A DNA stretch of 58,474 bases from Alphaproteobacteria bacterium. Lineage in GTDB: Bacteria; Pseudomonadota; Alphaproteobacteria; Thalassobaculales; Thalassobaculaceae. Each line of letters begins with the position of its first letter. The first letter of the stretch is position 1. Below the pieces are notes generated by a model. That model was not told where the DNA came from. It saw only the letters and a program-made list of their open reading frames with translations, and did no database searches. This document shows positions 26,536-42,363 of the stretch, piece after piece. The stretch is from NCBI GenBank assembly GCA_024742605.1, contig JANSYC010000021.1:1-58474 (forward strand), read 5' to 3'. The translations under genes were made by a program, and so were the position numbers.

Positions 26536-26877
26536 ATGGCCGTGCGCATATACCACAACCCGCGCTGCTCGAAATCCCGCCAGACCCTGGACCTCTTGAA
26601 GGCGAAAGGGATCGTGCCGCAGGTCGTTGAATATCTGAAGACCCCTCTGGATGCGGCGGCTCTTCAGGCTCTCAACGCCAAACTGGGTGTTCCAGTCCGC
26701 GCCATGATGCGGACCAAGGAAACGCCATATGGGGACCTGGGATTGGCGGAGGCTGATGACACAGCCCTGCTCGCGGCGATCGCGGCGCACCCGATCCTGC
26801 TGGAACGCCCGATCGTGGAGAACGGCGCAAAAGCCGCCATCGGCCGTCCACCGGAGGCGGTCGAGGCGGTATTGTAA
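26536..26877 (+). CDS. ArsC-family reductase (arsenate reductase-like)
   Basis: Thioredoxin-fold protein of 113 residues of the ArsC family. The catalytic Cys is Cys11 in YHNPRCSKSRQTL, exactly the ArsC motif, and RPIVENG later supplies one of the conserved Arg residues. True ArsC uses glutaredoxin and reduces arsenate to arsenite. The gene stands alone without arsB/acr3, which often means a Spx/YffB-like relative of uncertain substrate. However, an arsR-permease pair is present far away at 55-56 kb. GAAGGACTG before the ATG serves as a ribosome-binding site. Confidence in the family is high, in arsenate specificity moderate. Confidence 0.85.
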   Translation: MAVRIYHNPRCSKSRQTLDLLKAKGIVPQVVEYLKTPLDAAALQALNAKLGVPVRAMMRTKETPYGDLGLAEADDTALLAAIAAHPILLERPIVENGAKAAIGRPPEAVEAVL

Positions 26878-26915
26878 CGCCGGAGGCCAGATGCCCTCCG
26901 ACTGAAGACCGGGAC

Positions 26916-28289
26916 CTATTCCGCAGCGCGGGAATTCGGTCGTGCGAACCTGGCTTCCATCTCGCGTCGGATCTTCACCGCCTGGCTGGTCTCGTCGATC
27001 ACCACATCGGTCCAGCGCAGCTTCTCGCCCTGTTTGATCGGACGGGTGAGTTTGACGTTGTGAGCCAGGCCGAGCGGCAGATAACCCTCGGATAGGGAGG
27101 CATCGGCCGGGGTCTGCTTGCCCCAGACGCAATAGCCGCCCTCCCCGTCCAGCAGGTCGCCTGCCGCCATGTCCTTCTTGGCGGTCGCCACCACATCGGA
27201 ATGAAACGCCACCGGGCTGCCGGTCGGCTCACCGCGCAAGGCGACCGAGGCGACGGAGATGCCCAACTCCAAGCCGATCATATGGATCGGCCGGTAAAGC
27301 GCCGCGTATTTGTAGCTGCTGTCCGGCAGCATCTTGTATTCCTCGAAGCAGAAGGTCGCGTAGTCGGTCTCGGCCTCAATCACCACATAGGTGCCGAACT
27401 GGATATGCCCCGGCACCTCGTTGCCGTCCCGGTCGAGCGAGGAGATCACCTCGGTGGTGCCGATCGCCGGATCCGTAAGGGTCACGACGCCACCGGCCGT
27501 CACCGGTTTGCAGACTTCCGCCACGCCTGCCCCGGATGACGGCGGGAACAGCAGGCCGTCCGGTTGCGGCAACAGGCCGGTCGCATTGCAGACCGCCGTC
27601 ATCTCGATCCCGGATTTGGTGCCGTCCACGAAGCTGTTGAACATCTTGGGGTTCATCCGTCCCCGTTCGACCATCTCTCGCGAAAAGCCGAAATTGTCCC
27701 AGACCGTCTCCGGCGTGGAGGCGTGGTAGTGCGGCAGGTAGCGGGTGCCCTTCCCCGCGCAGACCACCTTGAAACCGGCAGCCCGGGCCCAATCCACATG
27801 CTCCGCGATCAGCGCCGGCTGGTCGCCCCAGGCCAGGCTGTAGACCAGACCCGCGGCCTCGGCCTTGGCGGCCAGCAGGGGGCCGGCCACCACGTCCGCC
27901 TCCACGTTGACCATGATCACGTGCCGGCCGTGCTCGATCGCCTGCAGGCAATGCCTGATACCCGCCGCCGGGTCCCCGGTCGCCTCGATCAGCACGTCAA
28001 GACCGTCCGCCGCGATCAGCGCATCGGCATTGTCGGTGACGAAGGTGGAGCGATGGGCCCGCGCGTCGTCGAAGGAGGTGGCGGCAAACCGCTCCGGCTC
28101 CCAGCCGATATGCGCAAGCTGATCGCGCGCGCGCGCCGGGTTCAGGTCGGCCACGCCCAGGATGTGGATGCCCTGGGTCAGACGGGCCTGGGACAGGTAC
28201 ATCGCGCCGAATTTGCCGGCGCCGATGATACCGACGCGTACGGGACGCCCCTCGGCCTCGCGGGCCGAGAGCATACGGGAGAGATTCAT
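26916..28289 (-). CDS. NAD(P)-dependent oxidoreductase with C-terminal SAF domain
   Basis: Oxidoreductase of 457 residues. The N-terminal Rossmann fold shows VGIIGAGKFGAMYLSQ (about residues 19-34) and a homoserine-dehydrogenase-like layout (DVLIEATGDPAAGIRH). The C-terminal third is a SAF domain (KKDMAAGDLLDGEGG to LTRPIKQGEKLRWTDV), an arrangement seen in sugar-acid dehydrogenases. It probably oxidises a polyol-derived or hydroxy acid with NAD(P); the substrate is unknown. It begins 12 bases after the PhyH dioxygenase stop, so they are one operon. Both may handle a hydroxylated small acid. A nearby GGAGC supports the ATG at 28289. Confidence 0.82.
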   Translation of the reverse strand: MNLSRMLSAREAEGRPVRVGIIGAGKFGAMYLSQARLTQGIHILGVADLNPARARDQLAHIGWEPERFAATSFDDARAHRSTFVTDNADALIAADGLDVLIEATGDPAAGIRHCLQAIEHGRHVIMVNVEADVVAGPLLAAKAEAAGLVYSLAWGDQPALIAEHVDWARAAGFKVVCAGKGTRYLPHYHASTPETVWDNFGFSREMVERGRMNPKMFNSFVDGTKSGIEMTAVCNATGLLPQPDGLLFPPSSGAGVAEVCKPVTAGGVVTLTDPAIGTTEVISSLDRDGNEVPGHIQFGTYVVIEAETDYATFCFEEYKMLPDSSYKYAALYRPIHMIGLELGISVASVALRGEPTGSPVAFHSDVVATAKKDMAAGDLLDGEGGYCVWGKQTPADASLSEGYLPLGLAHNVKLTRPIKQGEKLRWTDVVIDETSQAVKIRREMEARFARPNSRAAE

Positions 28290-31021: not shown

Positions 31022-31735
31022 TTAGACCGCCTCATCGACCTCATCAAGGTCGGTTTCACGCGGCGCCAGCAGCTGACGGCGCACCTCCCGTTCTTCCTGG
31101 GTGAGGCGGTCGACTTCCCCCTGCTTCAGGGCATGGGCAGCGCCCCTCATCTCCTCGGTCCATTTCGGCATCGCGCCCTCGAGCGCCGCCAGGGCCTGAC
31201 GTTGAGACGAGGCTAGTTTGGAGGCCTGCTCGAACTGCTCGACGATGTCGCTCTTTCTAAGCGCAACGAAATCCCGATGGTCCGGAAGAACCTGGCCTAT
31301 CGCCGGCAGCACCTCGGCCTCGTAAGTGGCTGCGGCCGCCTGACGTTCGGGCGAAGTCATCCAGAGAAAACCCCACCCGGACGGTGTCCCAAGACGCCAG
31401 ACCCCAAGCCTGCAAACCTCGAACACATACTCGGTGGGGTACGCCGCGACCATGTCCTCAAGTGTACGAAGCACTTTGTTCGGATGTGCGTAGCATCCGC
31501 GCAGGGCCTGGTGCAGGGCGTCCACCTTGGCCTCGTGCCGACGAAAGAACGTGTGATCGTCCTGCAGTCGACGAACCTCGCCATCCAAGGTCTTGACCTT
31601 GCGACGCACCCGCTCCAACACCTTGTAGCTTTGGTCGATCAAGGTGACGTAGGCGCGCAAGGTGTCGATACGGTCGCTTGCGGCAACCGCTTTCTGATGC
31701 AAGTCCGTCAGCGCGGCGGGAACGAGGTCAGTCAT
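31022..31735 (-). CDS. Uncharacterised coiled-coil protein
   Basis: Cytoplasmic protein of 237 residues without signal peptide or membrane helices. Residues about 30-70 (LIDQSYKVLERVRRKVKTLDGEVRRLQDDH) and the C-terminal 60 (many Glu, Gln, Arg, Lys) look like coiled coil. A middle part holds YVFEVCRLGVWRLGTPSGWGFLWM, a compact Trp-rich strand region. I do not recognise the family. It lies between pcaC and the glucosylglycerol-phosphate synthase gene on the same strand, 92 bases after the synthase stop, so it could be read with the osmolyte genes, but nothing in the sequence shows a related role. Confidence 0.6.
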   Translation of the reverse strand: MTDLVPAALTDLHQKAVAASDRIDTLRAYVTLIDQSYKVLERVRRKVKTLDGEVRRLQDDHTFFRRHEAKVDALHQALRGCYAHPNKVLRTLEDMVAAYPTEYVFEVCRLGVWRLGTPSGWGFLWMTSPERQAAAATYEAEVLPAIGQVLPDHRDFVALRKSDIVEQFEQASKLASSQRQALAALEGAMPKWTEEMRGAAHALKQGEVDRLTQEEREVRRQLLAPRETDLDEVDEAV

Positions 31736-31827: not shown

Positions 31828-33348
31828 TCACTCAGCAGCAGGCTTGTGGGAAATCGGACGGCCGGCCCGGCTGTCGGCGAGTTCGCCAAACCGGCTCATG
31901 GTATGCTCCGACCAGTGCTTTATGTCATAGCGGCTGACATTGGCGCGCATCTTCTGCATGCGCCCCTTCTGCTCTTCCGGCGTCATCTCCAGCGCCTGAT
32001 CGATCGCCGCATCCATGAAACGCTCAGAATAGGGGTTGGTCAGCACCGCATAGGGCAACTGCACAGCCGCACCCATGAACTCCGAGATCACGAGCGCGCC
32101 CTGCTCATCGATCCGAGCGGCGCAATACTCCTTACAAACGAGATTAAGTCCATCCCGTAACGGCGTGAGCCAGCAGACATCTGCTGCCTGAAAATAGGCG
32201 ACCAAATCCTCCAGCGGGATCGCGCTGGCGAACAAGCTGATCGGCACCCAGTCGAACCGGCCGAAGCGGCCGTTGATGCGCCCGACAAGACCTTCGATCT
32301 CCTGTTGGACCTGCTGGTATACGGCCATGTTCTGATTGGCGACCACCGACACCACCATCAGGCGGACCCCGCCATGCAGGTCCTTGCGCCGTTCCAGGAG
32401 CCGCTCATAGGACTCCAGCATCTCCTTGGTGCCCTTCGTGTAGTCAGTCCGGGCAATCGAGACGATCAGACGTTTGCCGGCGAGCTCTTCCCGAATGGAG
32501 TTCAGTTTTTCCGCGGTTTCGGGCTTGCGGGCGATTTCCTCGATATGCGCCATGTTCGTGCCGACCGGGAAGGCGTCGATATTGACGATCTGATCCCGGA
32601 ACTTGAGACGCGTGATGATCGTCGGCTCCGACAGCGCCATGCCCCGGGGCGACATGCCGTCCTCTACGTCCAGTTCCTCCTGCACCTCGACGTCGAACAG
32701 GCTGCGAGCCGCGTGCGCGAAGTTCATTGCGTAGCGGGGAATGTGAAACCCGACCAGATCGCAGGCCAGCAGGCTTTCCATGATCTCGTTCCGCCAGGGC
32801 AGGACATTGAAAATGTCGGCAGACGGGAATGGCGTGTGGTGGAAGAAGGAAATCCGCGCATTCGGCTTCATCTGCCGCAGATACATCGGTGCCAGCCACA
32901 GATTATAGTCGTGCACCCAGATGATCGCGTCATCGGCCGCCTGTTCGGCAGCAGCCTGGGCGAACAGGAAATTCACCTCCTGAAAGGTCGGCCAGTCGAC
33001 CGGACCGTAATCGTAGGCGTCCACAAACGAGTGCAGGATCGGCCAGAGCGCCTCCTTCGAGGTCACATGGTAGAAGCTCGCCACCTGCTCCTCGGTCAGC
33101 GCCAGCCTGGCCACGTCGTAGTCGCCGAAATCGTCACTGATCGTGACCACCCGGTCCCAGTCTGCCAGTTCGCCTGTCTTGCGCAGCTTCCAGGCGACCC
33201 AGGACCCGCGCGAGACTTCGCCGAAAAAGCTCTTCAGGGTTGGCACGATACCGTTCGGGCTCTTATTGGCGCGGAGTTCGACGACGCCATCGACCTCGAC
33301 CTCCTCATAGGGCTGCCGATGGTAAACGATTACAAGATCGGACTTCAT
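31828..33348 (-). CDS. ggpS: Glucosylglycerol-phosphate synthase
   Basis: GT20-family glycosyltransferase of 506 residues that joins ADP-glucose and glycerol-3-phosphate to make glucosylglycerol-phosphate. It follows cyanobacterial GgpS closely throughout: YHRQPYEEVEVDG at the start, SPNGIVPTLKSFF, the KEALWPILHSF block, WVHDYNLWLAPMYLRQ, and FFHHTPFPSADIFNVLPWR. Further on come ACDLVGFHIPRY, GTKEMLESYERLLERR, and TPLRDGLNLVCKEYC. Trehalose-phosphate synthase differs at these sites, especially the KSPNG entry and the W-x-A-x-K loop. It is third in a coupled set gpsA, phosphatase, synthase, in which the start overlaps the phosphatase stop (ATGA). In many proteobacteria the phosphatase and synthase are fused in one GgpPS chain; here they are separate. 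Confidence 0.93.
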   Translation of the reverse strand: MKSDLVIVYHRQPYEEVEVDGVVELRANKSPNGIVPTLKSFFGEVSRGSWVAWKLRKTGELADWDRVVTISDDFGDYDVARLALTEEQVASFYHVTSKEALWPILHSFVDAYDYGPVDWPTFQEVNFLFAQAAAEQAADDAIIWVHDYNLWLAPMYLRQMKPNARISFFHHTPFPSADIFNVLPWRNEIMESLLACDLVGFHIPRYAMNFAHAARSLFDVEVQEELDVEDGMSPRGMALSEPTIITRLKFRDQIVNIDAFPVGTNMAHIEEIARKPETAEKLNSIREELAGKRLIVSIARTDYTKGTKEMLESYERLLERRKDLHGGVRLMVVSVVANQNMAVYQQVQQEIEGLVGRINGRFGRFDWVPISLFASAIPLEDLVAYFQAADVCWLTPLRDGLNLVCKEYCAARIDEQGALVISEFMGAAVQLPYAVLTNPYSERFMDAAIDQALEMTPEEQKGRMQKMRANVSRYDIKHWSEHTMSRFGELADSRAGRPISHKPAAE

Positions 33349-34112
33349 GCGGCAGCCTCCCGGAGTGTCGTCAGAGTGGAAAGAACTTCGTGGATCCCAG
33401 CGGCCCCATCGCCGCGCGCGATCGTGGTGTTGGGCAGCCCCCGCACACGGTCCAGCAGACCGGGCTCGCTGTTGGCAACCGCCACGCCGCGCAAGCCGGT
33501 CTCGAACAGGGACAGGTCGTTCATCGTATCGCCTGCGACCAGCACACGGCCGCCGTCGATCTTCAGGTGATCGACGACCCGCAATAGGGTCGGCCCCTTG
33601 CTGACGCCCCTAGGGAGCACGTCGAAATAGGTGTCTGCCGAAGTCAGACAATCAAACCCGGCCTCCTCGACCTTCTGCACCACGGCCGGATCGTATTTCG
33701 AGGGGTTGTAGTAATAGCTGACCCGATAGCGGAACGGCGTCGGTTGCAACTCCAGCCAGGGGACATCCGACAGCATGTCCCGGATCCGATCGCCAGAATC
33801 CCCCCAGATCTCGGCAATCTCCGCCTCGAGCTCCGGGACCGGAACCAGATCCGGTCCGCCGACGATCGTGGTGCCCACATCGCCGATCACGAAATCCGGA
33901 AACGGCACCCAACCGTCGGCGCAGAGTTCTTTAATGAACGGGATGTCGCGACCGGTCACGAAGACCAGCATCACCTTGTCCCGATTGGCCTTGAGGGCGC
34001 CGTAGAGCGCATCCCGCTCAGTATTGCTGCCCCCGAGGAAAGTGCCGTCCAGGTCGGTTGCGAGGATCACATCCTTGGAGGATGCGTCCGGCATCTGGAA
34101 GGGCGTATTCAT
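33345..34112 (-). CDS. HAD-IIB phosphatase, probable glucosylglycerol-phosphate phosphatase
   Basis: Cytoplasmic HAD-superfamily phosphatase of 255 residues, sucrose-phosphatase/trehalose-phosphatase-like. Motif I is LATDLDGTFLG (two catalytic Asp), motif II is VFVTGRD, and motif III/IV is the Lys in SKGPTLLRV followed by VLVAGDTMNDLSLFE, which binds magnesium. It is expected to remove phosphate from glucosylglycerol-phosphate. It overlaps gpsA by four bases upstream and ggpS by four bases downstream, so all three are translationally coupled. It resembles the phosphatase half of the bifunctional GgpPS rather than the cyanobacterial StpA/GgpP type, as judged from the HAD motifs. No fusion with ggpS: the frames differ. 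Confidence 0.88.
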   Translation of the reverse strand: MNTPFQMPDASSKDVILATDLDGTFLGGSNTERDALYGALKANRDKVMLVFVTGRDIPFIKELCADGWVPFPDFVIGDVGTTIVGGPDLVPVPELEAEIAEIWGDSGDRIRDMLSDVPWLELQPTPFRYRVSYYYNPSKYDPAVVQKVEEAGFDCLTSADTYFDVLPRGVSKGPTLLRVVDHLKIDGGRVLVAGDTMNDLSLFETGLRGVAVANSEPGLLDRVRGLPNTTIARGDGAAGIHEVLSTLTTLREAAA

Positions 34113-35191
34113 GACAAAATCTCCGATACGTACTCAGGAACATTCTCTTCTGTCGGGTGCGCGAGCACCACATTGAGGGCATTCGGTTCCGCCTTTAGCG
34201 GCCGGCCCAACAGGGCCTGCAAGGCATCCGTGATTTCGACGCCATCGGCCACGATGGAGCGAACAGCCGAGCAGATCGGCATCTCGATGCCCAATTGCGC
34301 GGCGAGATCGGTGACCGAGACCGCGTTGACCACCCCTTCGACCACGCTGCGTCGGTTGCTCAGCAGCTCCTCCTTGGAGTGCTGCTCGCCCAGCGCCTTG
34401 CCGAAGGACATGTTGCGCGACTGCTCGCTGGAGCAGGTCAGCGCCAGATCTCCCATACCAGACAAACCGGTCACGGTTTCCCGCCGCCCGTCCAGGGCTT
34501 CGGCCAGCGTCTTCATCTCGTCCAGCCCGCGCGTGATCAAGGCCGCCCAGGTGTTGGTCCCAAAGCCTAGCCCCTTGGCGATCCCACAGGCGATGGCAAT
34601 CACGTTCTTCACGGCCCCGCCGACCTCCACGCCGACGACGTCATCCGACATGTAGGGGCGGAAGGTCGGGGTCGCGAGGGTGACGGACAACCGGGCCGCC
34701 AGCGATCCGGTCGGGTCGTGCGCCACATCGGCCGAGGCAATGGTCACCGCCGTCGGATGCCCGGCCGCCACTTCCGAAGCGAAACTGGGCCCCGACAGCA
34801 CCGCAATCGGATGCCCCGGCATCGCTTCCTCGACAACCGTGGTCAGCAGTTTTCCGCTGTCCCGCTCAATCCCCTTGCTCGCCAGAACCACCGGGACGCC
34901 GGATGCTGCGACCGCATGCACCCGCTCCCCAATATCGCGGATCGCCTGGGACGGCACGACCAGGAGGATCGCGTCCGCATCCCGGACCGCCAACGCCATG
35001 TCCGAGGTCACCGTGATCCCGTCCGGCAGATCGTACCCCGGCAGCAACTGATCGTTGACCCGATCGCGCTGCATCGCCGCCGAGAGCTTTGGATCGCGCG
35101 CCCACAGGGTCACCACGGCCCCGGCTCGGGCCGCCGTGATCGCCAGCGCGGTGCCCCACGCCCCGCCCCCGATCACGCAGATGCGTGTCAT
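34109..35191 (-). CDS. gpsA: NAD(P)-dependent glycerol-3-phosphate dehydrogenase
   Basis: Enzyme of 360 residues that reduces dihydroxyacetone phosphate to sn-glycerol-3-phosphate, the acceptor for glucosylglycerol-phosphate synthase. The Rossmann entry is VIGGGAWGTALA (residues 6-17). ILLVVPSQAIRD, VLSGPSFASEVAAG, and VGVEVGGAVKNVIAIACGIAKGLGFG with the catalytic Lys follow, then the LSGMGDLALTCSSEQSRN signature. It is about 20-30 residues longer than most GpsA at the C-terminus. It starts the coupled gpsA-phosphatase-ggpS set (4-base overlaps), so its role here is to feed osmolyte synthesis; it may be a second copy besides a phospholipid housekeeping one. There are 161 bases before it, with no clear promoter. 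Confidence 0.95.
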   Translation of the reverse strand: MTRICVIGGGAWGTALAITAARAGAVVTLWARDPKLSAAMQRDRVNDQLLPGYDLPDGITVTSDMALAVRDADAILLVVPSQAIRDIGERVHAVAASGVPVVLASKGIERDSGKLLTTVVEEAMPGHPIAVLSGPSFASEVAAGHPTAVTIASADVAHDPTGSLAARLSVTLATPTFRPYMSDDVVGVEVGGAVKNVIAIACGIAKGLGFGTNTWAALITRGLDEMKTLAEALDGRRETVTGLSGMGDLALTCSSEQSRNMSFGKALGEQHSKEELLSNRRSVVEGVVNAVSVTDLAAQLGIEMPICSAVRSIVADGVEITDALQALLGRPLKAEPNALNVVLAHPTEENVPEYVSEILS

Positions 35192-35352
35192 GGGCGCGGG
35201 TCCGTCGGTGGACGGCAGGGGAAGTTCAGATGTCGGATCGATGGAAGTAATGGGAGGGATCTCCTGAATGTGAAACTCGCCGAAAGGGTCGTGATTTTAC
35301 CATTTCTAAAGATGCGTCAAACCGCCGCTGGATCAAGATATCACCGCTCTCC

Positions 35353-36441
35353 TCACTGATGGGTTATGCGATGACCGTCTTGAGAAAATACATGGATATA
35401 GTCCTCTAAAATATTGACAAATATACGGCTACCTGAACTTCTGATTTCGGCATTCGCCGGTTCGCGGACCGTACAGTCCGGGCCGCCGGCAAGAACGCCA
35501 TGAAGGACCCGTGTATCGCCCAGGTCTTCGACCACATCGATCTCGAAGCCAAGCGCGCCATCCTGGTCCGAACCTTTTTCGAGAACCTCGAAATGTTCCG
35601 GACGGATGCCGACGGTGACGATGTGATCGTCCAAGTTTGCTGCACTTGCGAAAGGAAGATAACCCGGATCGACCGCTTTCTCCAAACGCAGGCCCTTCGG
35701 TTCGACCCGCGCCGAGAGCAAATTCATCGCGGGTGATCCAATGAAGGCGGCGACAAAGGTGTTTGCCGGGCGGTCGTAAAGATCGCGCGGGCTGCCGACC
35801 TGTTCGACCCGTCCATCATTCATCACGACGATCGTGTCGGCCAAGGTCATGGCCTCGACCTGGTCATGGGTCACGTGGATCATGGTGGTTCCGAGCCGAC
35901 GGTGCAGACGGCTGATTTCCAGCCGCATCCGCACACGAAGCGAGGCGTCCAGGTTCGACAACGGCTCATCGAACAGGAACACTTTCGGGTTGCGGACGAT
36001 TGCCCGGCCGATCGCCACCCGCTGCCGCTGACCGCCCGAGAGTTCCTTCGGCTTGCGATCCAGCAGGTCGGTGAGCCGCAGGATCTCGGCCACATCCCTC
36101 ACCCGCTGCTCGACCGTGCCTTCATCGGTCTTGGCCAGCCGAAGGCCGAAGGCCATGTTCTTGAAGACCGTCATATGGGGGTAGAGCGCATAACTCTGGA
36201 ACACCATGGAGACCTGACGGTCGGCCGGTGCGATATCGTTCACCACCCTGCCCGCGATCGAAAGCTCGCCCTCCGAGATCTCCTCCAACCCGGCGATCAT
36301 TCGCAGCAGAGTGGACTTTCCGCAGCCGGACGGCCCGACCAGGACACAGAACGCGCCGTCCTCAATCTCGAGATCGATCCCCTTGATCGCCTCGAAACTG
36401 GCGAACCTCTTGCGAACGCCCTTGAGCGTGACCGCTCCCAT
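35353..36441 (-). CDS. Sugar ABC transporter ATP-binding protein (UgpC/MsmK/GgtA type)
   Basis: ATPase of 362 residues of the CUT1 class of carbohydrate importers. Walker A is GPSGCGKST (residues 37-45), the Q-loop is VFQSYALYPHMTVFKNMAFG, the signature is LSGGQRQRVAIGRAIVRNP, and Walker B is VFLFDEPLSNLDA. The H-loop is HVTHDQVEAMTLAD, and a C-terminal OB-like regulatory (TOBE) region runs from about residue 240. In cyanobacteria GgtA is this type, and here it sits within the glucosylglycerol cluster, nine bases after the second permease. The gene is intact. Because the binding protein and first permease carry nonsense codons, the ATPase may now serve other CUT1 importers. Confidence 0.9.
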   Translation of the reverse strand: MGAVTLKGVRKRFASFEAIKGIDLEIEDGAFCVLVGPSGCGKSTLLRMIAGLEEISEGELSIAGRVVNDIAPADRQVSMVFQSYALYPHMTVFKNMAFGLRLAKTDEGTVEQRVRDVAEILRLTDLLDRKPKELSGGQRQRVAIGRAIVRNPKVFLFDEPLSNLDASLRVRMRLEISRLHRRLGTTMIHVTHDQVEAMTLADTIVVMNDGRVEQVGSPRDLYDRPANTFVAAFIGSPAMNLLSARVEPKGLRLEKAVDPGYLPFASAANLDDHIVTVGIRPEHFEVLEKGSDQDGALGFEIDVVEDLGDTRVLHGVLAGGPDCTVREPANAEIRSSGSRIFVNILEDYIHVFSQDGHRITHQ

Positions 36442-36450
36442 ACCCGCTCC

Positions 36451-37290
36451 TTACCCTTTCACCGCACCGGCCGTGAGACCTGAGACGATGCGTCGTTGGA
36501 AAACCAAGACAAGTGCGATCAACGGCACGGTGACGATCACCGACGCCGCCATGATCCGCCCCCATGGCACCTCGAACTCGCTTCCGCCGGTGATCAACGC
36601 AATGGCGACCGGAACGGTTCTCTGATCGTTCGTGAGGGTGAAGGTCAGAGCGAACAGAAACTCGTTCCAGGCCACGATGAAGGCCAAAAGGCCCGTCGTG
36701 ACCATGGCAGGGAGCATCAACGGCAGGAAGATCCTGGTCAGCAGGGTCCAGGGACCCGCCCCGTCCATGATCGCCGCCTCCTCGACCTCGATCGGCAGTT
36801 CCCGAATGAAACTTGTCAGCACCCAGACGGTGAACGGCAGGGTGAAAATCAGATACGAGAAGATCAGACCGAACCCGCTGTTGAACAGGCCCAGGACCCG
36901 GATCAGCTCGAACATTCCCGAGAGAACGGCGACCTGAGGAAACATCGAGACACTGAGAACCGCCAGCAGCATCATCCGCCGGCCTCGGAACCTGAACCGA
37001 CCCAGCGACATGGCGGCGGTCAGCCCCAGGGTCAGCGAAACGGCGACCACCGAGACCGAAACGAACAGCGAGTTCAGAATGTTCCGGGCAAAGGACTGTT
37101 CCTCGAAGATCGAGGTGTAATTGTCCAAAGGGAACCCGCGCGGCAGCACATCGACCTCAAAAATCGATGGACCGCTTTTGAACGAGGTGACGAGCGCATA
37201 GTAGAACGGAAACAGCAGAATCAGCAGCAGCACCGCGACCAGCAGCCAGAACGCGCTTTGTTTCAGCGGTTTCCACACCGAGTTCGGCAT
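36451..37290 (-). CDS. Carbohydrate ABC permease, MalG/GgtD-like
   Basis: Inner-membrane permease of 279 residues with six helices. Its cytoplasmic EAA loop is ELPIEVEEAAIMDGAGPWTLLTRIFLPLMLPAM, near residue 175, which contacts the ATPase. It is the MalG-type subunit of a CUT1 sugar importer. Its ATG overlaps the TGA of the first permease gene (TGATG), so it is normally translated by coupling to that gene. Since the first permease has an internal TAG 380 bases upstream, ribosome supply to this gene could be reduced. The family and position point to the glucosylglycerol/sugar uptake system; the gene itself has no defects. Confidence 0.9.
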   Translation of the reverse strand: MPNSVWKPLKQSAFWLLVAVLLLILLFPFYYALVTSFKSGPSIFEVDVLPRGFPLDNYTSIFEEQSFARNILNSLFVSVSVVAVSLTLGLTAAMSLGRFRFRGRRMMLLAVLSVSMFPQVAVLSGMFELIRVLGLFNSGFGLIFSYLIFTLPFTVWVLTSFIRELPIEVEEAAIMDGAGPWTLLTRIFLPLMLPAMVTTGLLAFIVAWNEFLFALTFTLTNDQRTVPVAIALITGGSEFEVPWGRIMAASVIVTVPLIALVLVFQRRIVSGLTAGAVKG

Positions 37291-38252
37291 CAGCGCTCCT
37301 CCCGCACGACGTCCGCCTTCAGGACGGTCAGATACAGTGCCGTCATGATCGCAATGATCATGAACAACAGGGTCGATGCGGCCGAGCCGTAGCCCACGTC
37401 CTGGAAGTCGACCAGTTGCTGGCGGGCATAGACCGACATGGTCATGGTCGACTCCGCGTTACCGGTCATGATGTAGACAACGTCGAACACCCGCAGGGCG
37501 TCCAGCATCCGGAAGACCAGCGCAACCATCAGCGCGGGCCAGATCAGGGGCAGCGTCACACCAAAGAACACCCGTACCGGATGGATGCCGTCGACCCGCG
37601 CCGCCTCGTAACAGTCCTTCGGCAGCATCTGGAGCGCTGCCAGCGCCAGCAGTGCGACGAACGGCGTGGTCTTCTAGGCGTCCACCAGAATGACCGAGAG
37701 CATGGTCAGATCGGGGTCGGCAAGCCATGCGATCGGTTGGGCGATCAATCCAAGCTTGAGCAGCACGTGGTTCACGACTCCGAACTGATCGTGCAGCATC
37801 CACGCCCACATCTTGGCGGACACGACGGTCGGGATGGCCCAGGGAATCAGAACGGCGGCCCGGAACAGGCCGCGCCCCGGGAAGCTGGTATTCATCACCA
37901 GCGCGAGGGTCACGCCCAGCAGCATCTCGATCGCGACCGACCCGAACGCAAAAACCAGAGTATTCTTGACCGACACCCACCACAGGGGATCGGTGATCAG
38001 CCCGTACCAGTATCCTTCGTCCCGCACCGCGAAGTTCTCGAAACCGATGAAGGACGCCGAACCCGGTGCCGACAGGGAAGCATCGGTGAACGCAAACCCG
38101 AAAGTGCGGACCAAGGGCCAAACCGCCACCACCGCCAAGGCCACAAGCATTGGCGTCAGAAACAGCCACGCCGTCCGGAGACGCGCACGCTGGTGCGACG
38201 AGCCCGTCGTCGTCTGAGGTGTCGGCGCAGATGTAGGCGCGGATCCTGGCAT
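37290..38252 (-). pseudogene. Carbohydrate ABC permease (MalF/GgtC-like) interrupted by in-frame TAG
   Basis: A single continuous reading frame of 321 codons that encodes a normal MalF-type permease except for one stop. Codon 193, at 37674-37676, is TAG and lies in ILVDA[24 protein letters not shown]. The family has VD-x-W-KTTPF here, so one base change of TGG to TAG explains it. Upstream are the first helices and the RAAVLIPWAIPTVVSAKMW loop; downstream is the EAA loop ([18 protein letters not shown]) and the last helices. The first part would end in the middle of the fourth to fifth helix and cannot work. Possible explanations are a true nonsense mutation, a base-call error, or amber suppression. 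A second nonsense codon in the neighbouring gene favours decay. Confidence 0.85.
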
Positions 38253-38271
38253 GGTCAATCCGGGCGTGCGC

Positions 38272-39564
<1,293 letters not shown>

Positions 39565-39981
39565 GTCAGAACTCCCTCTGCAGTGTAATTTTTTAGGGGC
39601 CGACGGTCGCGACGGACCGGCCCTGCAGTCGTGCGAAAGACCTCAATCCCTCGGATTGTCCGACCCTGCCGGTCGGTAACTCGTCGCACTCTGCCTACCA
39701 TCCGATATGTGTCCTCCTTTTATCATGTCCACCGAAAAATAGAGTGGTCGGTCTGGCATAATCTGAAGCACCCACTATTGTCTCCGGAGGGAGGCGCGAC
39801 CTGCTGGGCAGTAAAAAGATCCAAGTTCTGGTCGTAGTCGAGACAATAAAATCAACGCCTTAGATCTTCATCGCGACGACACTCAGCGACTGGTGCCAGC
39901 TTGCGCAGGCCGCACTGCCGCACTGTGGGGCGCCACGCAGGAGCCTCAGACAGACCGATCCCAATCGGAGGACGATTGAAT
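39565..39981. promoter_or_regulatory. Divergent intergenic region between the binding protein and glucosylglycerol hydrolase
   Basis: A 417-base gap with no credible gene. It must carry both divergent promoters of the transporter operon and the hydrolase. A CATAAT (39757-39762) is a fair -10 on the plus strand but has no good -35. GGAGGA at 39967-39972 is the hydrolase ribosome-binding site. No regulator gene of the LacI or ROK type is adjacent. Confidence 0.4.
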
Positions 39982-42363
39982 ATGACCGCACTTACCCAGA
40001 ACGCCGATGCAACCCAGGCTTTGGTCGATTGGTGCAGGCAGAAACTGGACACCGCAGAGACGACCTTCGACGCCGGTCTGGCGATTGCCCGTCGGATGGG
40101 CGCGCACAAGGCGGGCGAGTCCTGCGAAGTCGGCTTCTGGGTGCCAGAGCTTCTGGAGCGGCGGGTTCCGGACGGCGACATATTCATTGAGGTGCTCGAA
40201 CCGGTCGACGAGGTCCATCTCACCGTTTCCCGGCAAACCCACAAATTCGACCGGCACCTCATTCCGGCGGGTCGCTGCGAGGGTTTCGTGTTCTCCGTCA
40301 TCTCGGGCATGCGGGCCGGGACACGTGACACGATCGGCTCGTTCTACGCACTGACATGGCGCGACGAGAACGGCAAGTGGCACCGCATTCTCGATCCGCT
40401 CGCCCACTCCCTGCCGTTCGGCGTGTTCGCACCGGCCGAGTATTATGACATCGAGGCGATGCAGGCGGCCCGCTCCGACAAGGCGTATTTCGAAGCCCTC
40501 CCGGAGGGTGACCCGGTCAAACTGTCCAATCCGGTGAATATTCTGCAGATCCATCCCGGGACCGCGACCGCCGGCGGCACCCTCGCCAGTCTGGCACGCC
40601 GGTTCGACCACCTCGCCGAGCGAGTCCGAAACAATCTGCCGCTTGAGCCGGCCGACAAGCTGTTTCTGGGATACGACTCGGTCCAGTTGATGCCGGTCGA
40701 GCCGACCACCGTGTTCGAAACGGGTCAGGAATTCTGGACCGACACCGCGATCGAGGGAGACGATCAGACCGGCGGCATCGTAACCGCTGAATTGCATCGG
40801 CCAAGCACCACCAATTGGGGCTACGACGTGGTGGTTGCCGGAATGGCTGCCGTCAACCCGGCTATTCTGGAAAGCGGCCGTCCGGACGAACTGGTCGACC
40901 TCATCGAGGCCCTGCACAACTTCCCGGGCTCCCCGAAAAAGCTGGTGCTCGATGTGGTGTTCGGACACAGCGATAACCAAGGTCTGCACGCGCTGAACTA
41001 TCACTTCTTCGCCGGGCCGAATATGTACGGTCAGAACATCAACTATCGACATGGAATCGTCCGGGCGATCCTGCTGGAGATGCAGCGCCGCAAGGCGAAT
41101 TTCGGCGTCGACGGGATCCGGGTCGACGGCGCCCAGGATTTTACCTTCTGGAACAGTTCAACCGAGCAACTGGAACACGACGACGACTATCTTCAGGAGA
41201 TGTCGGATGTGGTCCAGGAGGTGGCAGGCCGCCGATACCGTCCGTGGTTCGTGTTTGAGGATGGCCGCCCCTGGCCGCAGGAGGACTGGGAACTGTCCTC
41301 CACATACAGGGCGGTGGTCGAAAAGCAGCGCGACGATGATGTGTTCCAATGGGGGCCGCTGACATTCGCCCACAATACCCCGTTCATCTATTCGTTCTGG
41401 CTGTCGAAATGGTGGCGCATCAAGGAGATCATGGAGGTCGGCTCGAACTGGATTTCAGGCTGCGCGAACCACGACACCCTGCGCCGCGGAACCCAGATCA
41501 ATCCCAAGCTCAACGTCAACACGCGGCTTGGCGACACGCGGATGGAGATTCTGGACAAGGCCTACGACAACCCTGCGGTTTCGCTGATCACCTACTGCGC
41601 CTTCCCCGGGGTCCCGATGGATTTCCTCAATGCGTCCGCGCGCGCCAGCTGGGGCTTTATCCGGAATCAGGACGACCAGTACGGCGTCAAGGTGGTCGCC
41701 GAAGAAGCGATCTCCTTGAAATGGCAGGTGGACGAGTACGCCTATTCGATGCCGATGGCCTTCCGGCGCCTGAAGGAAATGGGGTTCACCACCCGGGAGG
41801 ACCTGGTCCGGTTCATGGAATTCCTGCCGGCGCTGGTCGAGGTAACCAACAACGATCTTGAAGTGATCGCGAGGCTCGCCAACGAGGTGAACCCGCCGCT
41901 TGCAGGGCCCGGCCCGTTCACTGTCGCCGGATTGAAGCAGGTCGCGCGAGCCTGGATGGACGACATGCACGACTACTGCAACGTCTCCGGCTATGAAGCA
42001 GCGCTCAGCGAAACCCAGACCGGCTTCAATCTCGCGGTGCGACAGTTCCGGCACGCCAATCCTTGGCTGCAGGCCAACCTGAAGGGTGGGGATCACTACG
42101 ATTACCGGAAACCGGTCGACGGCAGCGTTCTCTTCACCACGCTGCGGCACGCGCCGAACGGGGACCAGGTATTCTGCATCGCGCATCTGGAGGGTGGACC
42201 GGTGACGATCGACCCGCTGACGATGGATATTCCCGGACTTGAGGGCATGGGCTGGAACGTCGCCCTGCGCACCCCGCCGATAGGTGGCGATTTCGTCGGC
42301 GGCGTGCTGACGATCGCCGACAGCATGGGCGTGCTCTACACCCGTCCCGCCGCGCGCCGTTAG
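39982..42363 (+). CDS. gghA: Glucosylglycerol hydrolase (GH13 family)
   Basis: GH13-type glycoside hydrolase of 793 residues resembling GghA (Slr1670 type), which splits glucosylglycerol into glucose and glycerol during hypo-osmotic shift. The catalytic nucleophile is Asp382 in DGIRVDGAQDF, the acid/base is Glu426 in FVFEDGRPWP, and the transition-state pair is Asn496-His497-Asp498 in CANHDTLRRG. An N-terminal beta-domain of about 200 residues and a C-terminal beta-domain flank the barrel. The ATG at 39982 is preceded by GGAGGA nine bases away. It faces away from the transporter operon, so synthesis, uptake and breakdown genes form one island. Alternative: sucrose-phosphorylase-like amylase, less likely here. 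Confidence 0.88.
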   Translation: MTALTQNADATQALVDWCRQKLDTAETTFDAGLAIARRMGAHKAGESCEVGFWVPELLERRVPDGDIFIEVLEPVDEVHLTVSRQTHKFDRHLIPAGRCEGFVFSVISGMRAGTRDTIGSFYALTWRDENGKWHRILDPLAHSLPFGVFAPAEYYDIEAMQAARSDKAYFEALPEGDPVKLSNPVNILQIHPGTATAGGTLASLARRFDHLAERVRNNLPLEPADKLFLGYDSVQLMPVEPTTVFETGQEFWTDTAIEGDDQTGGIVTAELHRPSTTNWGYDVVVAGMAAVNPAILESGRPDELVDLIEALHNFPGSPKKLVLDVVFGHSDNQGLHALNYHFFAGPNMYGQNINYRHGIVRAILLEMQRRKANFGVDGIRVDGAQDFTFWNSSTEQLEHDDDYLQEMSDVVQEVAGRRYRPWFVFEDGRPWPQEDWELSSTYRAVVEKQRDDDVFQWGPLTFAHNTPFIYSFWLSKWWRIKEIMEVGSNWISGCANHDTLRRGTQINPKLNVNTRLGDTRMEILDKAYDNPAVSLITYCAFPGVPMDFLNASARASWGFIRNQDDQYGVKVVAEEAISLKWQVDEYAYSMPMAFRRLKEMGFTTREDLVRFMEFLPALVEVTNNDLEVIARLANEVNPPLAGPGPFTVAGLKQVARAWMDDMHDYCNVSGYEAALSETQTGFNLAVRQFRHANPWLQANLKGGDHYDYRKPVDGSVLFTTLRHAPNGDQVFCIAHLEGGPVTIDPLTMDIPGLEGMGWNVALRTPPIGGDFVGGVLTIADSMGVLYTRPAARR

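Follow-up and report, generated by a model that had tools for sequence, protein, structure and literature searches.

The ABC uptake system that heads a glucosylglycerol operon has probably undergone a recent and ordinary inactivation, with the genes for glucosylglycerol synthesis kept. The operon lies in the window, which is the whole stretch of 58,474 nucleotides analyzed in this study, a contig from an alphaproteobacterium of the family Thalassobaculaceae. It consists of seven genes on the minus strand, encoding a binding protein, permease 1, permease 2, an ATPase, glycerol-3-phosphate dehydrogenase, a HAD phosphatase, and glucosylglycerol-phosphate synthase (GgpS). The first two genes contained one nonsense codon each, at positions invariant in homologues, and the other five were open (Table 1). 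The presence of a nonsense codon in both of these neighboring transporter genes, each time where homologues do not vary, argues for the loss of the transporter. Among the readings considered, recent loss was the most likely, sequencing error was the main rival, and read-through of the stops came third.

The earlier note had described a TAG codon in a sugar permease with an intact frame on both sides and had explained it by a single G to A change in the TGG codon of a conserved Trp residue. The minus-strand codon at 37674–37676, which reads CTA on the plus strand, is indeed TAG. It is codon 193 of the 320-codon frame of permease 1, which starts with ATG at 38252 and ends at its natural TGA stop codon at 37290–37292. 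With the stop scored as X, permease 1 belonged to PF00528, with a score of 60.6 bits versus the gathering score of 26.4 bits. It aligned without gaps, and with 82% identity, to the protein of Thalassobaculum litoreum, the best named homologue, and the frame is open on both sides of the stop. The homologue set consisted of the best 80 of 202 relatives obtained from a genome scan. In all 80 of these loci, the residue at the position of codon 193 was Trp and was always encoded by TGG, in support of the proposed single change. The neighboring residues D (−2), K (+1), P (+4), and F (+5) were also invariant in these 80 loci. No internal stop was found in the 80 loci, and the one stop seen in an alignment (L072), at query residue 319 of 322, was the natural end of the gene. 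The frame of permease 1 is closed by the TAG before EAARVDG at codon 216, which we take to be the EAA-type ATPase-coupling loop.

The TAG had been treated as an isolated codon. It is present, but the adjacent upstream gene of the same transporter, encoding the binding protein, contains a second nonsense codon, TAA, which the earlier note had not reported. Past the TAA, the frame remained open for 41 more codons up to the TAG at 38272–38274, which is the natural end at codon 431. The position of the TAA was occupied by Tyr in 79 of the 79 homologues that reached it, encoded by TAC in 50 and TAT in 29, and the 80th alignment among the best 80 loci kept stopped short of it. Two homologue alignments contained stops at query residue 429 of 430, corresponding to the natural end. 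The solved structures nearest to the binding protein were those of alpha-glycoside/maltose-type binding proteins. As in pseudogenes, both genes thus have an internal stop where intact relatives have a sense codon (TGG in 80/80 and Tyr in 79/79).

Table 1. Nonsense codons and genes of the operon, with window coordinates.
Feature	Position	Strand	Evidence
TAG nonsense codon, permease 1 codon 193 (Trp/TGG in homologues)	37674..37676	-	TGG in 80/80 homologues
TAA nonsense codon, binding-protein codon 389 (Tyr in homologues)	38398..38400	-	Tyr in 79/79 homologues reaching the position
Periplasmic substrate-binding protein (PF01547), 430 codons, interrupted at codon 389	38272..39564	-	Pfam 107 bits
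ABC sugar permease 1 (PF00528), interrupted by TAG, EAA-type motif past the stop	37290..38252	-	Pfam 60.6 bits, cut-off 26.4; MalF/SugA relative
ABC sugar permease 2, intact	36451..37290	-	PF00528 56.4 bits; open frame
ABC ATPase, MalK/UgpC type, intact	35353..36441	-	PF00005, OB_MalK, TOBE_2; NF008653 above cut-off
NAD(P)H-dependent glycerol-3-phosphate dehydrogenase, intact	34109..35191	-	PF07479 and PF01210; NF000942 above cut-off
HAD-IIB sugar-phosphate phosphatase, intact	33345..34112	-	PF05116 139 bits; TIGR01484 above cut-off
Glucosylglycerol-phosphate synthase (GgpS), intact	31828..33348	-	TIGR02398 equivalog 666.7 bits, cut-off 569

The last gene of the operon exceeded the curated cut-off of the GgpS equivalog, as expected of a glucosylglycerol synthesis operon, and the HAD-IIB phosphatase is the probable glucosylglycerol-phosphate phosphatase, with its exact substrate proposed from this context. 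Because both broken genes belong to an operon that ends in an intact GgpS gene, the transporter is predicted to carry a compatible solute, probably glucosylglycerol or a related alpha-glucoside. Neither permease 1 nor the binding protein reached a curated equivalog cut-off, and their sequences therefore do not settle the substrate. The flanks of the T. litoreum locus, in which four frames were scanned, contained no sugar enzyme that would settle it. GgpS adjoined the transporter in 2 of the 80 homologous loci (L044 and L045, both from alphaproteobacterial MAGs; best 80 of 202), and no GgpS match was found in the examined DNA of the other 78. A scan of 35100–40000 yielded no sigma-70-like promoter sites. 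Divergent from the broken transporter, an 820-residue frame on the plus strand (39901–42363) matched PF14872 (hypothetical glycoside hydrolase 5) with 816 bits, and its product could act on the same glucosides as the transporter. Directly downstream of ggpS, a 237-residue frame on the minus strand (31022–31735) had no Pfam match.

Of the 36 genomes of the family, 5 carried the transporter permease and 6 carried GgpS, and the other four transporter copies had no internal stops. In two of the family genomes (G024 and G027), GgpS and the transporter were located far apart or on different contigs. The only genome of the same genus found (G001) keeps a partial ATPase gene and the genes for the dehydrogenase, the phosphatase, and GgpS. 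Its contig C436 begins inside the ATPase gene, and no match to the binding protein or the permeases was found in this 87% complete assembly. The GgpS protein encoded there (in locus L153, which spans 1–5046 of C436) was 97% identical to that of the window despite a dS of about 0.87, which indicates that GgpS is under strong protein constraint.

Among the PF00528 matches genome-wide, 1 of 72 contained an internal stop, and this was the TAG of permease 1. No internal stops were found genome-wide in the 107 matches to ABC_tran, for which 150 of 167 candidates were scored, or in the 16 matches to SBP_bac_1; the TAA of the binding protein falls beyond the PF01547 match and is absent from the latter count. 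Four of 51 match rows for MFS_1 showed TGA, of which one was a normal gene end overrun by the domain match and three were below the cut-off. Across the four family searches, the TAG of permease 1 was the only stop inside a gene among the matches above the cut-off. In the window, a coding-potential scan based on codon usage was read as showing that the binding protein and permease 1 are the only genes with a stop far from their ends, and a weak coding segment at 26611–26940 contained TAA. No close intact second copy of the transporter was found in the genome, where the next best permease matches were 28–31% identical, and the idea of an intact copy elsewhere was rejected.

These counts bear on the main rival, in which the stops are sequencing or assembly errors, or minority or mixed alleles if the assembly is derived from a metagenome, and the organism itself has intact genes. 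The draft state of the assembly (187 contigs) and the fully constrained appearance of the surrounding coding sequence are consistent with such errors. However, a uniform error rate of two per 58 kb predicts a few more stops in the other approximately 240 domain matches, and none was found above the cut-off in them besides the checked gene end. In addition, both nonsense codons fall in the same transporter. The four transporter genes make up about 7% of the window, and two independent random hits, or two errors, would therefore rarely share them. Permease 1 showed no frameshift relative to T. litoreum, and the two changes differ in type (G to A in one, C or T to A in the other). We consider an error unlikely, while giving it more weight than any other alternative to recent loss.

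The earlier note had also suggested a check for a suppressor tRNA. The genome contained 43 tRNA genes, all with anticodons assigned by ARAGORN, and none of the anticodons was CTA or TTA. RF1 was present (513 bits versus a cut-off of 423), whereas the PylS profile reached 26.6 bits versus a cut-off of 178. Within the window, TAG terminates ordinary genes, for example at 26916 and 43249. Neither a cognate suppressor tRNA nor a PylS match above the cut-off, as expected for a recoded or suppressed amber codon, was thus found in the genome. We conclude that the genome uses the standard code, and amber suppression was rejected on the basis of the tRNA set, RF1, PylS, and the genome-wide stop counts. 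A variant code of the genus, in which TAG is a sense codon, would account for the in-frame TAG itself and nothing else. It is at odds with a single TAG in 72 permease matches and none in 107 ABC_tran or 16 SBP matches, as well as with the lack of a CTA tRNA, the presence of RF1, and the genes that end in TAG, and its probability is negligible. The earlier statement that a full-length product depends on the reading of codon 193 holds as a conditional, but the tRNAs, RF1, and PylS gave no sign that it is read.

Read-through at some rate, by leaky termination or by an unrecognized suppressor, would yield a low level of the transporter. In the portions of Belinky et al. (2021; PMC7918605) drawn on here, read-through is proposed for many bacterial in-frame stops, and low dN/dS around the stop is used as an argument for it. 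The dN/dS values around both stops in the window resembled those under purifying selection and carry this same signature, but low values are equally expected from a recent change. Moreover, two different stops, TAG and TAA, would both have to be read; because the adjacent gene has its own TAA, the transporter would stay broken if the TAG were the only stop to be read. The absence of CTA and TTA anticodons from the 43 tRNAs, the RF1 and PylS scores given above (513 bits, and 26.6 versus 178 bits), and the use of TAG at the ends of ordinary window genes (26916 and 43249) also weigh against read-through, which we judge improbable. Still more speculative, and very improbable, is a version in which both stops act jointly as a short-lived regulatory brake, with low read-through, a trace of the transporter, a leak of glucosylglycerol, and an uptake system that stays under selection and could revert rapidly.

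Recent loss, the preferred reading, was examined through the selection acting on the transporter genes; relaxed selection is expected only if a loss is not recent. Relative to T. litoreum, the dN/dS values of the binding protein, permease 1, permease 2, and the ATPase were 0.158, 0.144, 0.140, and 0.210, respectively, and those of GgpS, the dehydrogenase, and the phosphatase relative to family genomes were 0.11–0.19. The two broken genes thus had values similar to those of the intact operon genes. Homologues entered the conserved-position tests if their identity was 50% or higher and their coverage exceeded 85%, which retained 60 of 80, 80 of 80, 79 of 79, and 71 of 75 homologues for the four transporter genes in the same order. 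Among positions at which 95% or more of the homologues agree, departures were seen at 4 of 121 in the binding protein and 2 of 110 in permease 1, and all of these departures were common to T. litoreum. The intact permease 2 and ATPase had one and three departures, respectively, that were not common to T. litoreum. In Tajima tests, the highest chi2 values of the binding protein and permease 1 were 3.79 and 3.12, respectively, with Endolissoclinum as the outgroup, and the other five outgroups gave values of 2.29 or lower. The intact ATPase gave a chi2 of 16.25 with the Endolissoclinum outgroup and 0.22–1.98 with the five others. The relaxed selection of a pseudogene was thus not seen in the remaining sequence of the two broken genes (dN/dS of 0.14–0.16; no private departures at conserved positions), and an old pseudogene was rejected because the dN/dS, conserved-position, and Tajima tests gave no clear relaxation. 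The remaining coding sequence still looks constrained, and the inactivation must therefore be young; judged from the sequence, only a very recent loss would be compatible.

Of random changes in the four transporter genes, with transitions weighted twofold, approximately 2.8% would be nonsense and 69% missense. If mutation is random, a nonsense change would precede a missense change at a conserved site with a probability of about 0.11. Two nonsense codons without a private conserved-site missense change are mildly surprising under mutation or sequencing error alike, and the pattern weighs equally against random errors. The nonsense-only pattern could be due to selection for loss or to chance.

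If the transporter has been lost in this way, translation would end at the TAG and the TAA. The binding protein would lack its last 42 residues, and permease 1 would lack everything after codon 192, including the EAA-type loop through which it would touch the ATPase. No working importer would be assembled from these truncated proteins. Glucosylglycerol synthesis would continue, but the cell would be unable to recover leaked solute. In addition, the stretches from the TAG to permease 2 (383 bases) and from the TAA to permease 1 (145 bases) would be untranslated, and Rho-dependent polarity could lower downstream expression.

If the stops are real, they represent an apparently independent alphaproteobacterial loss of glucosylglycerol recovery with synthesis kept, at an early stage, and the strain would be expected to leak an osmolyte that its neighbors can use. 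They would also show why an in-frame stop is best interpreted in the context of its operon, since a second stop in the adjacent gene speaks against amber suppression. If they are errors, they are a warning about one draft contig and no more. By titles and abstracts, no description of this operon was found in the literature on glucosylglycerol with Thalassobaculum or Alphaproteobacteria.

Among known transporters, the system resembles CUT1-type alpha-glucoside importers, in that permease 1 is a sequence relative of SugA and MalF and the binding protein is related to maltose and trehalose binding proteins in the PDB. It differs in that neither of the two proteins reached a curated equivalog cut-off. 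Like the in-frame stops described in the consulted portions of Belinky et al. (2021; PMC7918605), which are short-lived, the stops are premature and lie in genes that keep a low dN/dS. Unlike the cases in those portions, the stops here strike neighboring genes that serve the same transporter, a pattern more suggestive of lost function than of tuned dosage. The closest physiological parallel is Synechocystis PCC 6714, which, according to the portions of the two reports used here, has no ggtABCD but does express ggpS, with glucosylglycerol building up in its medium (PMC4060947), and has a lower salt tolerance limit (PMC4390839). As in PCC 6714 (PMC4060947), glucosylglycerol synthesis would be kept and ABC uptake lost, and a leak of the solute to the medium is predicted. 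The two differ in that the transporter genes are absent from the cyanobacterium, whereas in the alphaproteobacterium they are present with two nonsense codons and the substrate is assigned by inference.
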